Assembly: GCA_016214955.1 (NCBI GenBank)
Contig: JACRMN010000002.1
Coordinates: 62,001-126,000 of the forward strand
Source: Deltaproteobacteria bacterium
GTDB taxonomy: Bacteria; Myxococcota; Myxococcia; Myxococcales; Anaeromyxobacteraceae
DNA: 64,000 nucleotides
Direction: 5' to 3'
Below are positions 34,291 through 41,841 of this stretch, piece after piece (position 1 is the first letter of the stretch; the number at the start of each line of letters is the position of its first letter). The translations under genes and the position numbers were made by a program. The notes beneath the pieces are model-generated. The model was not told the DNA's origin. It was given only the letters and a program-made list of their open reading frames with translations, and made no database searches.

Positions 34291-34315
34291 CTGCCGACTA
34301 TATCCAAGGCCCGAC

Positions 34316-34498
34316 ATGGACACCGAGATCCAGTGCCCGTACTGCGGCGAGTGGGTCACCATCTTCATCGACCCGGGCGGCGGGGAGCGCCAGACCTACG
34401 AGGAGGACTGCCCGGTGTGCTGCCGGCCCTGGGTGATCCACGCCGTCGAGGAGGAGCCGGGGGGCTTCGCCGTGGCGGTGGGGCGGGAGGACGCGTGA
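34316..34498 (+). CDS. CPXCG-motif small cysteine-rich protein
   Basis: 60 residues. It opens IQCPYCGEW (CPXCG motif), continues through a conserved TIFIDPGGGERQTYEEDC, and closes CPVCCRPWVIH. The two Cys pairs form a probable zinc ribbon. This matches the small Cys-rich CPXCG family found in many proteobacteria, which has no established function. It starts 25 bp from the divergent Smr gene, and AAGG lies upstream of the ATG. Probably a single-gene transcript. Confidence 0.85.
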   Translation: MDTEIQCPYCGEWVTIFIDPGGGERQTYEEDCPVCCRPWVIHAVEEEPGGFAVAVGREDA

Positions 34499-34619: not shown

Positions 34620-34648
34620 TTGACAGATATATCGGCAAGATATATCTG
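34620..34648 (+). promoter_or_regulatory. Promoter overlapped by AT-rich PadR-type operator
   Basis: A consensus -35 TTGACA (34620-34625) is followed by a perfect 10-bp inverted repeat, CAGATATATC (34624-34633) and GATATATCTG (34639-34648), with a 5-bp spacer GGCAA. The right arm supplies TATATC (34641-34646) as a -10 at 15-bp spacing. This is a striking AT-rich patch in GC-rich DNA. Repressor binding would cover both promoter elements. The PadR gene begins 9 bp after the dyad, so autoregulation of the whole operon is the natural reading. The transcript would have almost no leader. Confidence 0.75.
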
Positions 34649-34656
34649 GGAGCGCC

Positions 34657-35304
34657 ATGGCGATCGCCCGGCTCCCCCGCGTCCGCGAGAACCGCACCCG
34701 CTACGTGGTGCTGGGCATGCTCTCCACCGGGGGCCCCATGACCGGCTACGGGCTGCGCAACAGCATCGCCGGCAGCGTCGGCAACTTCTGGCAGGAGAGC
34801 TACGGCCAGCTCTACCCGGCGCTGCGCGGCCTGGCGGCCGAGGGGCTGGTCACCAGCAAGACCTCGCCGGGCGCGCCCGGCCGCGAGGCCCGCATCTGGA
34901 GCATCACCGCCCGCGGCCGCGCCGAGCTGGCCCGCTGGCTCGAGCTGCCGCCGGCCATGGAGCCGGCCCGCAACGAGCTGCTCCTCAAGATCTACTTCGC
35001 CGGCGCCGTGGCGCCCGAGGTGACGCTCGCCAACCTGACCCGGGTCGAGAGCGCCGTCCGCGGCATGCTGGCCGGCTACCAGCAGCTCGACGCCCACTGG
35101 GAGGCCGAGACCGCCGGCCACCCCGACGCGCCCTACTGGCGCCTCACCCTCGACTTCGGCATGACCTTCGCGCGCACCGCCCTGGAGTGGATCGAGCGGG
35201 CCCGGGGCGTCGTGCGCGAACGCGGAAAGGCGCGCGCCGCGTCCCCGACCCGCAGCAAGCCCCAGGGGGCGAAGGCCGCCGCCCGCCCCGGAGGAACCCG
35301 ATGA
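34657..35304 (+). CDS. PadR-family transcriptional regulator
   Basis: 215 residues. The N-terminal winged helix (about 10-95) has RYVVLGMLSTGGPMTGYGLRN and FWQESYGQLYPALRGLAAEGLV, the PadR hallmark Y-x-x-L-x-x-L. APGREARIWSITARGRAELARWL forms the wing. The C-terminal helical dimerisation domain spans about 100-190, and a basic tail follows. PadR proteins sense phenolics or drugs and usually repress adjacent export genes. ATG at 34657 with GGGAG four bases upstream. Its stop overlaps the ATG of the ABC ATPase gene (ATGA), so regulator and transporter form one operon. The dyad at 34624-34648 is its probable binding site. Confidence 0.92.
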   Translation: MAIARLPRVRENRTRYVVLGMLSTGGPMTGYGLRNSIAGSVGNFWQESYGQLYPALRGLAAEGLVTSKTSPGAPGREARIWSITARGRAELARWLELPPAMEPARNELLLKIYFAGAVAPEVTLANLTRVESAVRGMLAGYQQLDAHWEAETAGHPDAPYWRLTLDFGMTFARTALEWIERARGVVRERGKARAASPTRSKPQGAKAAARPGGTR

Positions 35305-36002
35305 GCGCCATCGTCTCCGTCACCAACGTCAGCAAGATCTACAAGCTCGGCAAGACCGAGGTCCCGGCCCTGCGCGGCGTCTCCCTGGAGATCGACCAGG
35401 GCGAGTTCCTCTCGGTCGCAGGCCCGTCGGGCAGCGGCAAGACCACGCTGCTCAACCTGGTGGGCTGCGTGGACACGCCCACCTCCGGCTCGGTGGTGGT
35501 GGACGGCAAGGACACCACCGCCCTCTCGGAGCGGGCGCTGACGTCGCTGCGGCTCGACAGCATCGGGTTCATCTTCCAGTCCTTCAACCTGGTGGCGGTG
35601 CTCTCGGTGTTCCAGAACGTCGAGTTCCCGCTGCTGCTCCAGGGGCGCCTGGGGAAGAAGGAGCGGGCCGACCGCGTCAACGGGCTGCTCGAGGCGGTGG
35701 GCCTCGGAGACCACGCCCGCCACCGGCCCAGCGAGCTCTCCGGCGGCCAGCGGCAGCGCGTCGCGGTGGCCCGGGCGCTGGTGGGCCGGCCCAAGCTGGT
35801 GCTGGCCGACGAGCCCACCGCCAACCTCGACTCCCAGACGGGCGCCAACATCATCGACCTGATGCGGGACATGAACCGGAAGGACGGCACCACCTTCCTC
35901 TTCTCCACCCACGACCAGAAGGTGCTCTCCCACGCCAACGCGGTGATCCGCATCGCCGACGGCCAGCTGCTCGGGCGCGAGACCGTCGCCCGGGCCGGGT
36001 AG
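35301..36002 (+). CDS. ABC transporter ATP-binding protein, LolD/MacB type
   Basis: 233 residues. Walker A AGPSGSGKTT, Q-loop FIFQSFNLVAVLSVFQNV, signature LSGGQRQRVAVARAL, Walker B LVLADEPTANLD and the H-loop STHDQKV. The FQSFNLxxxLxxxxNV and ADEPTANLD forms are those of the LolD/MacB/FtsE group, which powers FtsX-fold permeases rather than classical importers. It is a cytosolic subunit at the inner membrane. The ATG overlaps the PadR stop, and the first permease gene begins 9 nt after its own stop. Confidence 0.93.
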   Translation: MSAIVSVTNVSKIYKLGKTEVPALRGVSLEIDQGEFLSVAGPSGSGKTTLLNLVGCVDTPTSGSVVVDGKDTTALSERALTSLRLDSIGFIFQSFNLVAVLSVFQNVEFPLLLQGRLGKKERADRVNGLLEAVGLGDHARHRPSELSGGQRQRVAVARALVGRPKLVLADEPTANLDSQTGANIIDLMRDMNRKDGTTFLFSTHDQKVLSHANAVIRIADGQLLGRETVARAG

Positions 36003-36011
36003 GGGAACGCC

Positions 36012-38135
36012 ATGGCCTCCCCCGTCGGGAAGATCCGCATCCTGCTGGGCATCGCCGGCCGCAACCTCTTCGCCAGCCGCGCCCGCACCGCCATCATCGG
36101 CGCCATCCTGCTGCTGGGCACCGCCCTGGTGGTGGCCGGCTCCTCGCTGGTGGAGAGCGTCGACCGCGGCATGCGCTCCTCCATCCAGGGCAGCCTGGGC
36201 GGACACCTGCAGGTCTACAGCGCCGCCTCCAAGGACGAGCTGGCGCTCTACGGCGGCATGGGGCGCGAGCCGCTGCTCGAGCCCATCGTCGACTTCGCCC
36301 GCGTGAAGGAGGCGCTCTCCCGGGTGCCCAACGTGAAGCGGGTGGTGCCCATGGGCATCGACCAGGCGCTGGTGGCCGGAGGCAACCAGCTCGACATCGG
36401 CCTGGAGAAGCTGCGCGCCGACGTGCGCTTCCTGGAGGGCGGCGACCGGAGCGCGGAGCTCCTGCGCCGCTACGAGGCCCACAAGAGCCACCTGCGCCGG
36501 ATGATCAGCCTGCTCTGGGACGAGCTGCAGGCCTCCCGGGCGCTGGCCGACGACCAGCTCATCCGCGACCGCAAGCAGGCCAACGAGGATCTGGCCCGCG
36601 CCTCCAGCCCCGCCTTCTGGGACGGCTTCGAGAAGGACCGGCTCGGCAGCCTGGAGTTCCTGGAGAACCGCGTCGCCCCCCAGGCCATGGAGGGCACCAC
36701 CACCTTCGTGCGCTACGTGGGCACCGACATCGACGCCTTCATGGAGGCCTTCGACCGCGCCTACGTCGTCGAGGGAGAGCGGGTCCCGAAGGGGCAGCGC
36801 GGCATCCTCCTGGGCAAGTGGTACGCCGAGGAGTACCTCAAGCTGAAGAGCGCCCGGCGCCTCGACAAGCTCAAGGACGCCCGCGACTACCAGCGGCGCA
36901 CCATCGCCGCCGACGCGGAGCTGCAGCGCTGGGTGAAGGAGAACCAGAGCCAGCTCAACGAGATCCAGATGCAGCTCGACCCCCTCCAGGCCGAGGAGGC
37001 GGTGGCCCGCCTGCAGAAGGGGCTGGGCTCTTCGGAGAAGGAGCTCGGCAAGCTGCTCTCCGAGCTGCTGCGCACCAGCGACGCCGACTTCGACCACAAG
37101 TACCGGCTCTACTACGAGCAGCTGGCGCCGCTGCTGCAGCTCTATTCCATCCGGGTGGGCGACACCATCACCATCAAGGCCGCCTCCCGCTCCGGCTTCA
37201 TCAACTCGGTGAACGTGAAGGTGTACGGCTTCGTGCACTTCCGCGGCCTGGAGAAGTCGCGCCTGGCCGGGGTGATGAGCCTCCTCGACCTCATGACCTG
37301 GCGCGACCTCTACGGCTACCTCTCCCGGGAGCAGAGCGAGGAGATGACCGCCCTGCGGGCCGCGGCCGGGACCCGGCAGGTCTCGCGGGAGAACGCCGAG
37401 GCCGAGCTGTTCGGCGGCGGTGGCGGCGTCGAGGCGGTGAGCCAGAAGGCCGCGCGCATCGACGAGGCGGCGGTGCTGGCCGACATCGGCGGCCGCAAGA
37501 AGAGCGACGACCTCTTCGACCGGGTCTACACGCAGGAGGAGCGCGACAGGGGCGTGGCCCTCAACGCCGCCATCCTGCTCCGGGACCCCTCGCGGCTGCG
37601 GCAGACCCAGGCCGAGCTGGAGAAGGCGGCACCCGGGCTGGGCCTCAAGGTGGTGGACTGGCAGAAGGCCTCGGGCCTGGTGGGCCAGAGCGTCTCGCTC
37701 TTCCGCATGGTGCTCTACACCGCGGTGCTCATCATCTTCGCGGTGGCCCTGGTCATCATCAACAACGCCATGGTGATGGCCACGCTGCAGCGGGTGCGGG
37801 AGATCGGCACCATGCGGGCCATCGGCGCGCAGCGCCGCTTCGTCACCGCCATGCTGCTCGTCGAGACCGCCGCGGTCTCGCTGCTCTTCGGCGCCGGCGG
37901 CGCCGGCCTGGGGGCCTTCGCCGTCTGGCTCATCCGCGCGCTGGGCGGCATCCCCGCCGGCAACGACCAGCTCTACTTCTTCTTCTCCGGCCCGGCGCTC
38001 CTGCCCACCCTCGGCACCACCAGCGTGGCCATCTCGATGGCGCTGGTGCTGGTGGTCAGCCTCATCTCCGGCTTCTACCCGGCGCTCATCGCCATGAAGG
38101 TCTCGCCCGTCGAGGCGATGGCCTCGGACGACTGA
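36012..38135 (+). CDS. FtsX-like ABC permease with very large periplasmic domain
   Basis: 707 residues. One transmembrane helix near residues 27-48, then about 510 residues outside the membrane, then three helices (about 565-590, 610-645 and 670-700) that form the FtsX/MacB core. The core includes ALVIINNAMVMATLQRVREIGTMRAIGAQRRFV. Typical family members of this topology have 200-250 extracytoplasmic residues. Here two charged helical stretches (about 145-205 and 290-360) predict coiled coils, reminiscent of the MacB stalk. It is the first of two different permeases in the operon and could form a heterodimer like LolC/LolE. Two bases separate its stop from the next gene. Confidence 0.88.
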   Translation: MASPVGKIRILLGIAGRNLFASRARTAIIGAILLLGTALVVAGSSLVESVDRGMRSSIQGSLGGHLQVYSAASKDELALYGGMGREPLLEPIVDFARVKEALSRVPNVKRVVPMGIDQALVAGGNQLDIGLEKLRADVRFLEGGDRSAELLRRYEAHKSHLRRMISLLWDELQASRALADDQLIRDRKQANEDLARASSPAFWDGFEKDRLGSLEFLENRVAPQAMEGTTTFVRYVGTDIDAFMEAFDRAYVVEGERVPKGQRGILLGKWYAEEYLKLKSARRLDKLKDARDYQRRTIAADAELQRWVKENQSQLNEIQMQLDPLQAEEAVARLQKGLGSSEKELGKLLSELLRTSDADFDHKYRLYYEQLAPLLQLYSIRVGDTITIKAASRSGFINSVNVKVYGFVHFRGLEKSRLAGVMSLLDLMTWRDLYGYLSREQSEEMTALRAAAGTRQVSRENAEAELFGGGGGVEAVSQKAARIDEAAVLADIGGRKKSDDLFDRVYTQEERDRGVALNAAILLRDPSRLRQTQAELEKAAPGLGLKVVDWQKASGLVGQSVSLFRMVLYTAVLIIFAVALVIINNAMVMATLQRVREIGTMRAIGAQRRFVTAMLLVETAAVSLLFGAGGAGLGAFAVWLIRALGGIPAGNDQLYFFFSGPALLPTLGTTSVAISMALVLVVSLISGFYPALIAMKVSPVEAMASDD

Positions 38136-38136
38136 C

Positions 38137-39444
38137 ATGATCCTCGTCGACCTGCAGATCGCGACCCGCAACCTGCTGCAGCACACCCGGCGCAACCTCT
38201 TCCTGGGCGGCGCGCTGGCGGCCACCACCGGCCTCCTCATCCTGCTCTCCGGCCTCTCCGGCGGCATGAAGGAGGGGCTGCTGCAGTCGGCCACGGTGCT
38301 GGCCAGCGGCCACGTCAACGTCGGCGGCTTCTACAAGGTGACCAGCAGCACCGCCGCGCCGCTGGTGACCGACTACGAGAAGGTGCTGGCCGAGACCAAG
38401 AAGCACGTGCCCGAGCTCCAGGACTACACCGTTCGCGTCCGCGGCTACGCCAAGGCGGTCTCGGAGCGCTCCTCCACCGACCTGGTGCTGGCCGGGGTGG
38501 AGGTGGCGCGCGAGAAGAAGATGCGCGACGTGCTCCAGCTCACCGCCGGCAAGCTCGAGGACCTGGGCAAGCCCGGGACCCTGCTGCTCTTCGAGGAGCA
38601 GGCCAAGCGGCTCGAGGTGGGGGTGGGCGACGTCATCACCCTCTCGGCCCCCACCACCCGCGGCCAGAGCAACACCGCCGACGTCCGGGTGGTGGCGGTG
38701 GCGCGGAGCATCGGCCTGATGTCGAGCTTCAGCGCCTTCATGCACGACGGCACTCTGCGCAAGCTCTACAACCTGCGCGAGGGCAACACCGGGGTCATCC
38801 AGCTCTACCTCCGGGACCACCGCCAGGCACCGCTGGTGGCGGCGCGGCTCCGCGACGCGCTGGCCGCCGCCGGCTGGCGGGTGATGGACTCCAACCCGCA
38901 GCCCTACTGGATGAAGCTCTTCCAGACCATCCCCAGCGAGGACTGGACCGGCCAGAAGCTCGACATGACCACCTGGGAGGACGAGATGAGCTTCCTCTCC
39001 TGGATCTTCACGGCGGTGAGCGTGCTCACCGGCATCCTCACCATCGTGCTCATGGTCATCGTCATCATCGGCATCCTCAACACCCTGGCCATCGCCATCC
39101 GCGAGCGCACCCGCGAGATCGGCACCCTGCGGGCCATCGGCATGCAGCGCAGCAAGGTGCGCTGGCTGCTGCTCCTGGAGGCCGGGCTGCTGGGCGTGGC
39201 CGCCACCGGGGCGGGCGCGCTCCTGGCCGGCCTCCTCGCCCGCCTGCTCAACGGCGCCCACATCGAGATCCCGCCGGCGATGCAGATGTTCCTCATGCAG
39301 CAGAACCTGCGCCTCGTCATCGAGCCGGGCCGGGCGGTGGCCTACGCGGCGCTGCTGGCCCTGGTGACCACGGTCGCCTCCCTCCTCCCCGCCACCCTGG
39401 CGGCCCGGCTCAAGCCGGTGACCGCCATGCACCACATCGGATGA
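38137..39444 (+). CDS. FtsX-like ABC permease, LolC/LolE type
   Basis: 435 residues with the standard four-helix layout: helix 1 about 20-42, a periplasmic domain of about 225 residues, and helices 2-4 about 285-315, 340-370 and 395-425. The conserved IVIIGILNTLAIAIRERTREIGTLRAIGMQRSKV after helix 2 is the coupling helix contacting the ATPase. Size and topology match LolC/LolE, which extract lipoproteins from the inner membrane. It starts two bases after the larger permease, and its stop overlaps the ATG of the LolA-fold gene (ATGA). Confidence 0.9.
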   Translation: MILVDLQIATRNLLQHTRRNLFLGGALAATTGLLILLSGLSGGMKEGLLQSATVLASGHVNVGGFYKVTSSTAAPLVTDYEKVLAETKKHVPELQDYTVRVRGYAKAVSERSSTDLVLAGVEVAREKKMRDVLQLTAGKLEDLGKPGTLLLFEEQAKRLEVGVGDVITLSAPTTRGQSNTADVRVVAVARSIGLMSSFSAFMHDGTLRKLYNLREGNTGVIQLYLRDHRQAPLVAARLRDALAAAGWRVMDSNPQPYWMKLFQTIPSEDWTGQKLDMTTWEDEMSFLSWIFTAVSVLTGILTIVLMVIVIIGILNTLAIAIRERTREIGTLRAIGMQRSKVRWLLLLEAGLLGVAATGAGALLAGLLARLLNGAHIEIPPAMQMFLMQQNLRLVIEPGRAVAYAALLALVTTVASLLPATLAARLKPVTAMHHIG

Positions 39445-40217
39445 TCGCCATGAAGAAGACCGCCCTCGCCCTGCTCCTCGCCCTGGCCGCCCCCCCGGCG
39501 CTCGCGCTCTCGCAGAAGGAGGCCTTCGACCTCGTCGAGCGCTTCGACGAGCGCCAGCGCAACAGCGGCGACTTCACCGGCCTCTGCTACCTGGAGCAGA
39601 AGGAGAAGGACAAGAGCGACGTGGTGCGGGAGCTGGTCTACTACCGGCGCAGCGAGGGGCAGCGGCTGCTCATGCTCTTCACCAAGCCCAAGGCCGAGGC
39701 CGGCAAGGGCTACCTGCGCATCGAGAAGAACCTCTGGCTCTACGACCCGGCCACCGGCAAGTGGGAGCGGCGCACCGAGCGGGAGCGCATCGGCGGCTCC
39801 GACTCGCGCCGCGGCGACTTCGACGAGCCGCGCCTCACCGAGGAGTTCGACGTCAAGTGGGAGGCCGACGAGAAGCTGGGGGCCTACGGCGCCCACAAGC
39901 TCCTGCTGACCGCCAAGGAGGGGGTGGACGTGGCCTACCCCACCGCCCGCATCTGGTACGACTCCGCCACCGGCAACATGCTGAAGCGCCAGGACCTGGC
40001 CCTCTCCGGCCGCCTGATGCGCACCGCCCTCTACCCGCGCTGGAAGAAGGTGTACTCCGAGTCGAAGAAGGGCGAGGTCTGGTACCCGGAGCAGATCCAC
40101 ATCTACGACGAGATCGAGAAGGCCAACTCCACCACGGTGGTCATCAAGCAGGTGGACCTGCGGCCCCTCACCGCCAACATGTTCACCAAGGCGTGGCTGG
40201 AGGCGAAGAGTCGGTAG
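39441..40217 (+). CDS. LolA-fold outer-membrane lipoprotein-sorting protein
   Basis: 258 residues with a Sec signal (KKTALALLLALAAPPALA, about residues 4-23). The mature protein is a beta-rich LolA/LppX-like sheet protein of the outer-membrane lipoprotein-sorting family. Features include YYRRSEGQRLLMLFTKPKAEAGKGYLRIEKNLWLYDP near the middle, IGGSDSRRGDFDEPRL, ARIWYDSATGNMLKRQDLALSGRLMRT and the closing PLTANMFTKAWLE. Relatives sit beside ABC or RND exporters and are thought to carry lipid-like cargo across the periplasm. Starts at ATG 39441 overlapping the permease stop; the MKK at 39450 is an alternative. With ATPase, two permeases and a barrel it forms a full envelope-spanning set. Confidence 0.88.
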   Translation: MIAMKKTALALLLALAAPPALALSQKEAFDLVERFDERQRNSGDFTGLCYLEQKEKDKSDVVRELVYYRRSEGQRLLMLFTKPKAEAGKGYLRIEKNLWLYDPATGKWERRTERERIGGSDSRRGDFDEPRLTEEFDVKWEADEKLGAYGAHKLLLTAKEGVDVAYPTARIWYDSATGNMLKRQDLALSGRLMRTALYPRWKKVYSESKKGEVWYPEQIHIYDEIEKANSTTVVIKQVDLRPLTANMFTKAWLEAKSR

Positions 40218-40218
40218 G

Positions 40219-40292
40219 GCGCTCGCCCCGACCTCGACCCCGACCGTGACCTGGACCTGGACCACGACCTCGACCTGGACCGCGATCGCCGC
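40219..40292. repeat. Intergenic GGTCG-type repeat, copy f, overlapping a gene start
   Basis: A long run of CGACC(T/C)(C/G) units (for example GACCTCGACCCCGACC, then GACCTGGACCTGGACC) begins just after the LolA-like stop and continues about 45 nt into the barrel gene. There it encodes threonine/tryptophan repeats. It is the longest copy of the repeat family and the only one running into a gene. Confidence 0.55.
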
Positions 40293-41841
40293 GGCGCTGC
40301 TGCTGGCCCAGCCCGCCGCTGCGCAGGAGCGGCCGAAGGAGGAGGAGCTCTTCGGTCCGTCCTCGCCCGAAGCGAAGGCGGAGGCGCGGCCGGAGGCCGG
40401 GGAGGGGGAGCGGCCCACCGACGCCGAGGTGTTCGGCAACGCACCGGGGGCGAGCGGCGAGGCCGCCGGCCGCCCCGACGCCGAGGGGCGGCTCCGGGAC
40501 GAGCTCACGCGCACCGACAACCCGCTGCAGGTGGGCGGGCTCCTCTACCTGCGCAGCGCCGCCACGGCGCTCCAGAGCACGCCCCCCTCGAGATGGACCT
40601 TCTCGGCGCCGTCGCTGGCCGACGTCTTCCTCGACGCGCGGCCCGGCGACCGGGTGCGCGGTTTCGGGCTGGTGCGGACCTTCTACGACTCGACCGCCGG
40701 AGGCGCCACCGGCCTCGCGGCCCTGGGGCCGAGCCAGTCGGGCACGCTCACCTCCTCGAGCGCGCTGCAGGGCAAGCTCGACCAGCTCTGGGTGCGCTTC
40801 GACGCCGCCCGCACCGTCTTCTTCACCGCCGGGCGCCAGCACGTCAAGTGGGGCGTGGGCCGCTTCTGGAGCCCCACCGACTTCCTCCACGCCAACCGGC
40901 GCAACCCGCTCGCCGGCTTCGACGACCGCACCGGCACCACCATGCTGAAGGCCCACCTGCCCTGGGAGAAGAACGGGTCCAACTTCTACGCCATGCTCGT
41001 CGCCGACAGGCTGGTGACCCCGCCCTCCTCGGTCTTCTACGCGCCGCCGGCGCAGGCGCAGAACCAGGTGGGCGCCGTGGGCGGCGCCGCCCGGGCCGAG
41101 GTTGTGCTGGGGAGCTGGGAGCTGGGGATCGACGGCGTAGCCCAGCGCGGGATGGAGCCCCGCGCCGGCTTCGACTTCTCCACCGCCATCTGGGAGCTGG
41201 ACGTGCGCGGCGAGATCTCGGTGCGCCGCGGCTCGGACGGGCCTCGCTGGCGGCCGCTCACCGATCTCACCGCGCTCATCGACCCCGGCAGCTTGCGCTA
41301 CCAGCCGCGGGGCCTGCGGACGGCCGCGGTGCTGGCCGCCGACTGGCAGCACAAGTACTCCGACGAGGACACCTTCACCATTGGCGCCGAGTACTTCTGG
41401 AACGAGAACGGCTACTCCGATCCGCACGTCTACCCGGTGCTGCTCTTCACGAACTCCTTCACCCCCTTCTACCTGGGGCAGCACTACGCCGGGCTCTACC
41501 TCTCCTTCCCCCGGCCCGGGAGCTGGGACCTCCACACCTTCACGCTCTCCGGCCTCGCCAACCTCTCCGACCGCTCGATGGTGGCCCGGCTCGACTGGAG
41601 CTACACGCTGCTCACCTGGCTGACGCTGGAGACCTACGTGGCCGGCCACGCCGGCGCCAGGGGCGGGGAGTTCCGCTTCGGGCTCGACGTCCTCGACTCC
41701 TACCGGGTGAGCCTGCCGCGCACCGCCTGCACCGCCATCGGCGGCAGCGCCAACGCCGCCGGCACCGAGTGCTCCACCCCCGCCATCCGCTTCGCCGCCC
41801 CGGTGGTCGACGTGGGCGTGGCGCTCCGGATGGCGCTCTGA
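40246..41841 (+). CDS. Outer-membrane beta-barrel, terminal gene of the ABC operon
   Basis: 531 residues. The signal peptide is unusual. The n-region MTWTWTTTSTWT has no Lys or Arg and is encoded by the GGTCG-type repeat, followed by a normal core AIAAALLLAQPAAAQ. After a charged, proline-rich segment (about 30-85) comes a large barrel with amphipathic strands. These include GRQHVKWGVGRFWSPTDFLHA, a W-G-x-G-x-x-x-x-PTD pattern typical of large outer-membrane porin-like barrels, DWQHKYSDEDTFTIGAEYFW, and a final strand VDVGVALRMAL. Two Cys near the end may form a disulfide. GTG start without Shine-Dalgarno. Probably the outer-membrane exit or acceptor for the ABC/LolA-like proteins; this is inference from operon position. 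Confidence 0.78.
   Translation: MTWTWTTTSTWTAIAAALLLAQPAAAQERPKEEELFGPSSPEAKAEARPEAGEGERPTDAEVFGNAPGASGEAAGRPDAEGRLRDELTRTDNPLQVGGLLYLRSAATALQSTPPSRWTFSAPSLADVFLDARPGDRVRGFGLVRTFYDSTAGGATGLAALGPSQSGTLTSSSALQGKLDQLWVRFDAARTVFFTAGRQHVKWGVGRFWSPTDFLHANRRNPLAGFDDRTGTTMLKAHLPWEKNGSNFYAMLVADRLVTPPSSVFYAPPAQAQNQVGAVGGAARAEVVLGSWELGIDGVAQRGMEPRAGFDFSTAIWELDVRGEISVRRGSDGPRWRPLTDLTALIDPGSLRYQPRGLRTAAVLAADWQHKYSDEDTFTIGAEYFWNENGYSDPHVYPVLLFTNSFTPFYLGQHYAGLYLSFPRPGSWDLHTFTLSGLANLSDRSMVARLDWSYTLLTWLTLETYVAGHAGARGGEFRFGLDVLDSYRVSLPRTACTAIGGSANAAGTECSTPAIRFAAPVVDVGVALRMAL

Follow-up and report, generated by a model that had tools for sequence, protein, structure and literature searches.

A conserved five-gene Lol-like locus of Myxococcota that probably exports a lipid-like molecule

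Organization of the locus

The 64,000-nucleotide stretch of DNA analyzed here (the window) comes from a deltaproteobacterium of the family Anaeromyxobacteraceae (contig JACRMN010000002.1, positions 62,001 to 126,000) and carries six genes in a tight operon layout on the forward strand, from 34657 to 41841. The first gene (34657-35304) encodes a PadR-family regulator with a Vir_act_alpha_C domain (PF03551 and PF10400), and is followed by genes for a LolD/MacB-type ABC ATPase of 233 amino acids (35301-36002; PF00005), two different LolC/LolE-type FtsX permeases (PF02687), a LolA-like periplasmic carrier of 258 amino acids (39441-40217; PF17131) and a predicted outer-membrane barrel of 531 amino acids, which in an AlphaFold model has 18 strands and a disordered N-terminal tail (40246-41841). 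The first permease, termed permease A (36012-38135), has 707 amino acids and a helical periplasmic insert, and permease B (38137-39444) is of ordinary length, with 435 amino acids.

The original prediction, made from the sequence alone, described six contiguous genes, and all are found at their places on one strand. Their junctions are, in gene order, an overlap of 4 nucleotides, gaps of 9 and 1 nucleotides, another 4-nucleotide overlap and a gap of 28 nucleotides, which comes close to the predicted spacing of 2 to 9 nucleotides or overlap. The predicted end of the locus is likewise correct, but its predicted start, 34620, is the TTG codon of a shadow open reading frame (ORF) that overlaps the PadR promoter, and the true PadR start is at 34657.

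Conservation of the transport genes

The genes for the ATPase, permease A, permease B, LolA-like protein and barrel stand in this order on one strand at 29 of the 32 loci that carry the core ATPase. The other three are without a full barrel gene: L068 is cut by a contig end, and in L052 and L069 no barrel was detected. Another 20 loci, mostly from distant families, were fetched later and used in no alignment; the first four genes are in order at all 20 of these, and the barrel is present at 19. The close packing of the five genes is likewise maintained at the 29 loci and the 19 later ones. The same gene order is repeated in dozens of genomes, and the grouping of the five transport genes is therefore not due to chance. 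Homologs of permease A (E of 1e-40 or better) are present in 88 of 146 sampled Myxococcota genomes, a few of which may hold only the Myxococcaceae-type paralog described below, and orthologs of the LolA-like protein occur in most of Anaeromyxobacteraceae and across several families of the order. Moreover, the range of the system reaches beyond Myxococcota, as the five-gene unit is also found in Oligoflexaceae (Bdellovibrionota; L053). Within Anaeromyxobacteraceae, the locus is flanked by an Smr-domain gene upstream and by a malic-enzyme gene and a DUF302-like gene downstream. This synteny is found at the family level only, and the constancy of the Smr and malic-enzyme flanks within the family suggests vertical inheritance. 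A literature search found no paper describing this five-gene system, although its coverage was incomplete and the result therefore shows little.

Two further observations concern individual loci. One genome (G010) has its core locus without a barrel (L069:9638-12979); another permease A copy, at a different place in this genome, was matched as two pieces (G010:C136:60566-62764). Four core loci of Myxococcaceae (L045, L050, L078 and L085) are situated near genes of the type III secretion kind (YscJ/FliF family, PF01514).

Separate housekeeping Lol genes

Elsewhere in the genome there is a lolF-lolD pair, located on contig C13 between lysS and bamA (both of which were read by eye from ORFs), and a lolA gene on contig C14 whose product scores over the equivalog cut-off of TIGR00547. 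A pathway made of lolF-lolD and lolA is the usual one outside some gamma-Proteobacteria (PMC11784454). Because these separate housekeeping genes exist, the five-gene locus represents a second Lol-type system. The view that the locus is specialized rather than housekeeping is thereby upheld; it would have been undermined had this been the genome's only lolCDE-like locus. The ORF for the housekeeping LolF (L063:9650-11758) is 702 amino acids as listed and is longer at its N terminus than E. coli LolC or LolE, reflecting either extra membrane segments or a wrong start.

Features of the transport proteins

The operon ATPase shares 44% identity with E. coli LolD but scores 233 bits against the NCBIfam LolD equivalog profile, below its cut-off of 307.75 bits. 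In a tree of ATPases, those of the core loci group separately from LolD in a moderately supported clade (87/96), with long branches outside it. The two permeases score 61 and 67 bits against the NCBIfam LolCE equivalog profile, far below its cut-off of 362 bits. This cut-off alone is a weak criterion, since the genome's own LolF also misses it at 322 bits; however, the gap between that value and 61 or 67 bits is not weak.

An AlphaFold model of permease A, built with 31 aligned relatives, has a predicted local distance difference test (pLDDT) score of 82.9 and a predicted template modeling (pTM) score of 0.75. Among solved structures, it is most similar to LolE (Z 25.9) and LolC (Z 23.9), with the heme exporter HrtBA and MacB ranking next. 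Permease A thus has the LolC/LolE fold in its model, plus an extra helical insert, and permease B is assigned to the same fold by sequence only, through profile matches to E. coli LolE over 321 columns and to the C-terminal domain of LolC. According to the model and the alignment, the insert of permease A comprises about 250 residues (roughly residues 125-375), is mostly helical and is conserved. It is a constant feature of the protein, as every full-length ortholog has 690 to 742 amino acids.

The LolA-like carrier matches PF17131 at 117.7 bits (gathering cut-off 30) and is the sole protein of this family in the genome. It also matches by sequence the solved LolA-superfamily protein NE2245 (PDB 3buu, E 4e-9). 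The protein carries a signal peptide and no lipobox cysteine, and on these grounds it is predicted to be soluble and periplasmic.

In the AlphaFold model of the last protein (33 aligned relatives; pTM 0.76), residues 94 to 530 form 18 strands behind the disordered tail, which agrees with the earlier guess of an outer-membrane barrel. The model resembles OprD/Occ porins at Z of about 23 (range 22-24) and AlgE at Z 20-22, with deviations of 3.3-4.5 Å over about 300-340 residues at roughly 7-11% identity. No match to the barrel was found in Pfam, NCBIfam or PHROGs or by sequence search of the PDB. The likeness of the modeled barrel to OprD/Occ porins is one of shared fold only, with no family-level sequence match.

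A conserved motif in the barrel tail

The region of the barrel protein between the signal peptide and the first strand is of low complexity and variable, yet it carries a short motif with the consensus R-P-S-E-x-E/D-L/M/I-F-G (RPSExELFG). The motif mostly follows directly after the predicted cleavage site and often occurs in 2 to 4 copies. In the window, the tail includes ERPKEEELFG (residues 28-37) and, about 20 residues further on, RPTDAEVFG (residues 56-64), and the model places short helices on both (residues 32-36 and 60-63). The core pattern of a hydrophobic residue followed by F-G has 50 matches in the barrel tails, compared with a mean of 2.2 in shuffled tails (500 shuffles, largest value 8). 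The acidic form of the motif is found in 7 of 456 other proteins from the same loci and at three places in the remaining parts of all barrels. Among the later-fetched loci, which lie outside the discovery set, the exact motif with -FG is present in 18 of 19 barrels, and the remaining one reads RPSEEELFSS. Two seeming exceptions, the barrels of L084 and L055, have wrongly chosen starts and do contain the motif; the L051 barrel has a weak form, and L061 is a locus of a different type. Both this motif and the insert of permease A are features beyond those of the original prediction.

Regulation and adjoining genes

The PadR protein matches PF03551 at 54.4 bits and PF10400 at 58.4 bits, over the gathering score, and is the only PF10400 protein of the genome. 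A putative promoter/operator precedes its gene at 34620-34648, where the sequence TTGACA (34620-34625) runs into a perfect inverted repeat, CAGATATATC-GGCAA-GATATATCTG (34624-34648). The pattern GATATATC-N5-GATATATC, with up to 3 mismatches allowed, occurs once in the 5.3-Mb genome. A simple scan for promoters and terminators yielded no consensus -35/-10 pair and nothing useful. Control of the operon by PadR is plausible in this one species because the regulator gene comes first, overlaps the ATPase gene by 4 nucleotides and has a genome-unique palindrome on its promoter. PadR would probably repress its own operon from this palindrome in this species only, with relatives using other regulators.

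PadR control had been put forward as a property of the system, and the six genes had been expected to be conserved together. This expectation holds for the five transport genes but not for the regulator, as the locus was free of PadR-family genes in all 33 relatives, including one from the same genus, and the core is conserved without the regulator. The idea that PadR belongs to the system in general was therefore rejected. The ATPase gene of the same-genus relative comes directly after the Smr gene, and in several relatives a MarR-type gene lies upstream of the core instead. In one metagenome-assembled genome (L048), the core locus is accompanied by a PadR gene from a different subfamily, which suggests that such regulators were recruited on more than one occasion. 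The sister species, which lacks PadR, has a different, imperfect palindrome, GCGGA...TCCGC, immediately before its ATPase gene (L043:290-370); this is perhaps the site of another regulator. Immediately upstream of the PadR gene is one for a small, cysteine-rich CPXCG protein (PF14255; window 34313-34498), and in L069 a similar gene is found upstream of that for the ATPase.

Paralogous and distant loci

Myxococcaceae carry a paralogous set of genes, permA'-permB'-LolA', whose permA' and LolA' products show 33-37% identity to the core proteins. In two genera this set is located between a gene for an enzyme with AMP-ligase, ketoreductase (KR) and acyl carrier protein (ACP) parts and a gene for a nonribosomal peptide synthetase (NRPS) (L058:2239-19901 and L059:1-18116). 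No ATPase or barrel gene lies nearby, and the set may rely on those encoded at the core locus. A more distant arrangement (L060:6112-15899) consists of genes for a TetR regulator, a short permease A, permease B, a LolA-like protein, a barrel and an ATPase, followed by genes for a Rieske oxygenase, an acyl-ligase and a hydrolase. Here permease A (435 amino acids) is without the insert, and the barrel is without the LFG tail.

Discussion

The five-gene core is probably a dedicated second Lol-type exporter that carries a lipid-like molecule from the inner to the outer membrane. The idea that the operon provides one part for each envelope layer is supported for the ATPase, the two permeases, the LolA-like carrier and the barrel, and these components resemble Lol machinery rather than a whole MacAB-TolC pump, as had been proposed. 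In the mechanism we envisage, a dimer of the ATPase would drive a heterodimer of permeases A and B, lifting an amphiphilic cargo from the outer leaflet of the inner membrane. From there, the LolA-like protein would ferry the cargo across the periplasm to the barrel, which may place it in the outer membrane or pass it through.

The nature of this cargo is suggested by analogy. In aryl-polyene (APE) clusters, a LolA-like and a LolB-like protein together with a transporter of the resistance-nodulation-division (RND) type have been proposed to move APE-lipid to the outer membrane (PMC8253772), and NCBIfam includes a flexirubin transport family, LolA2 (NF053544). These precedents, together with the paralogs found in the context of NRPS or polyketide synthase (PKS) genes and the distant locus L060 with its Rieske and acyl-ligase genes, suggest that the cargo is not a set of lipoproteins but a lipid or a lipid-linked small molecule. 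Because the support consists of analogies and paralogs, we hold this view of the cargo with moderate confidence. An attempt to identify the cargo from neighboring genes failed, since the flanks show only family-level synteny and include no biosynthetic partner.

Several points weigh against an exporter of this kind. No biosynthetic gene is consistently beside the core across the loci, and the adjoining genes give no pointer to a cargo. Links to biosynthesis exist for the paralogs and for more distant relatives, but not for orthologs. A barrel is undetectable beside two core loci (L052 and L069) and beside the distant locus L109. In addition, the hook by which LolC binds LolA was not identified in the permeases by profile comparison, in which the LolC alignment covered the C-terminal domain only. 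Finally, the same set of parts would serve transport in either direction.

The next best explanation, to which we give a distinctly smaller chance, is a second lipoprotein pathway that sorts a particular lipoprotein or a small set of them, with the barrel bringing this cargo to the cell surface. All of the inner-membrane and periplasmic parts do resemble Lol parts. However, no lipoprotein gene travels with the core, the paralogs stand beside NRPS/PKS or acyl-ligase genes, and the permeases and ATPase fall far below the NCBIfam cut-offs for LolCE and LolD equivalogs.

It is unlikely that the system carries out retrograde or bidirectional lipid traffic in the manner of Mla, whereby the barrel and the LolA-like protein would return outer-membrane lipid to the ABC transporter. 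Beyond the indifference of the parts to direction, this idea draws on the distant locus L060, whose Rieske-oxygenase and acyl-ligase genes could be catabolic. Nevertheless, according to Pfam none of the genes at the locus encodes an MCE-domain or MlaA-like protein, and the solved relatives of the permeases (LolCDE, MacB and the heme exporter HrtBA) are exporters or extractors. Also improbable is a MacB-like system for drug or antibiotic efflux, in which a ligand-sensing PadR would exert control and the barrel would form the exit duct: PadR does head the operon with a putative dedicated operator-like site, and the ATPase and permeases are distant relatives of MacB, but PadR is not conserved with the system, the operon includes neither an HlyD/MacA adaptor nor a TolC-type protein, the modeled barrel has an 18-stranded porin fold, and MacAB-TolC has no place for a LolA-like carrier.

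Returning to the export of a lipid-like molecule, the simplest reading of the tail motif is that it may serve as a periplasmic docking peptide. More speculatively, the two ends of the route, at the inner and the outer membrane, could dock to each other through the helical insert of permease A and the RPSExELFG tail of the barrel. We tentatively propose that tandem N-terminal motifs tether the barrel to the carrier or to the inner-membrane part of the system, with the permease A insert as the likely receiver; lipids would then pass from the inner to the outer membrane along a route with a docking code of short peptides, of a sort not described so far. If true, such docking would explain how a pathway that relies on a soluble carrier is directed to one outer-membrane acceptor.

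It has long been asked how lipids other than lipopolysaccharide and lipoproteins arrive at the outer membrane, and complete, conserved sets of parts for such a route are rare. The five-gene unit, which most of the sampled Myxococcota possess, includes a carrier and a barrel of its own and a precise motif that can be tested. Moreover, the NRPS/PKS-linked paralog offers a way into finding the cargo of such systems.

Comparison with known systems

The components invite comparison with several characterized machineries. The barrel shares its predicted 18-stranded fold with the OprD/Occ and AlgE barrels, but unlike these it belongs to no Pfam family and has a disordered N-terminal tail with RPSExELFG repeats. 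The folds of the ATPase and FtsX permeases are related to those of MacAB-TolC. In contrast to that pump, the ATPase is unfused, there are two different permeases, and a soluble carrier is present instead; no periplasmic adaptor or TolC-type duct is encoded in the operon, although genes for these elsewhere in the genome were not sought. The aryl-polyene ApeL/ApeM/ApeN and flexirubin LolA2 modules are similar in that a LolA-like carrier forms part of a dedicated module for a lipid-like product of the outer membrane. However, the system described here has an ABC transporter and a barrel, where the aryl-polyene module relies on an RND transporter and a LolB-like protein.

The closest parallels are with LolCDE and LolDF-LolA, which likewise combine a LolD-type ATPase, permeases of the LolC/LolE fold and a soluble carrier of the LolA superfamily, and the presence of two unlike permeases recalls LolC and LolE. 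The present system differs in the insert of about 250 residues in permease A, in having its own barrel within the operon, and in scores far below the equivalog cut-offs for LolCE and LolD. It is Lol-like in its parts, but by score and by its role in the genome it is not a member of the LolCDE/LolDF family.

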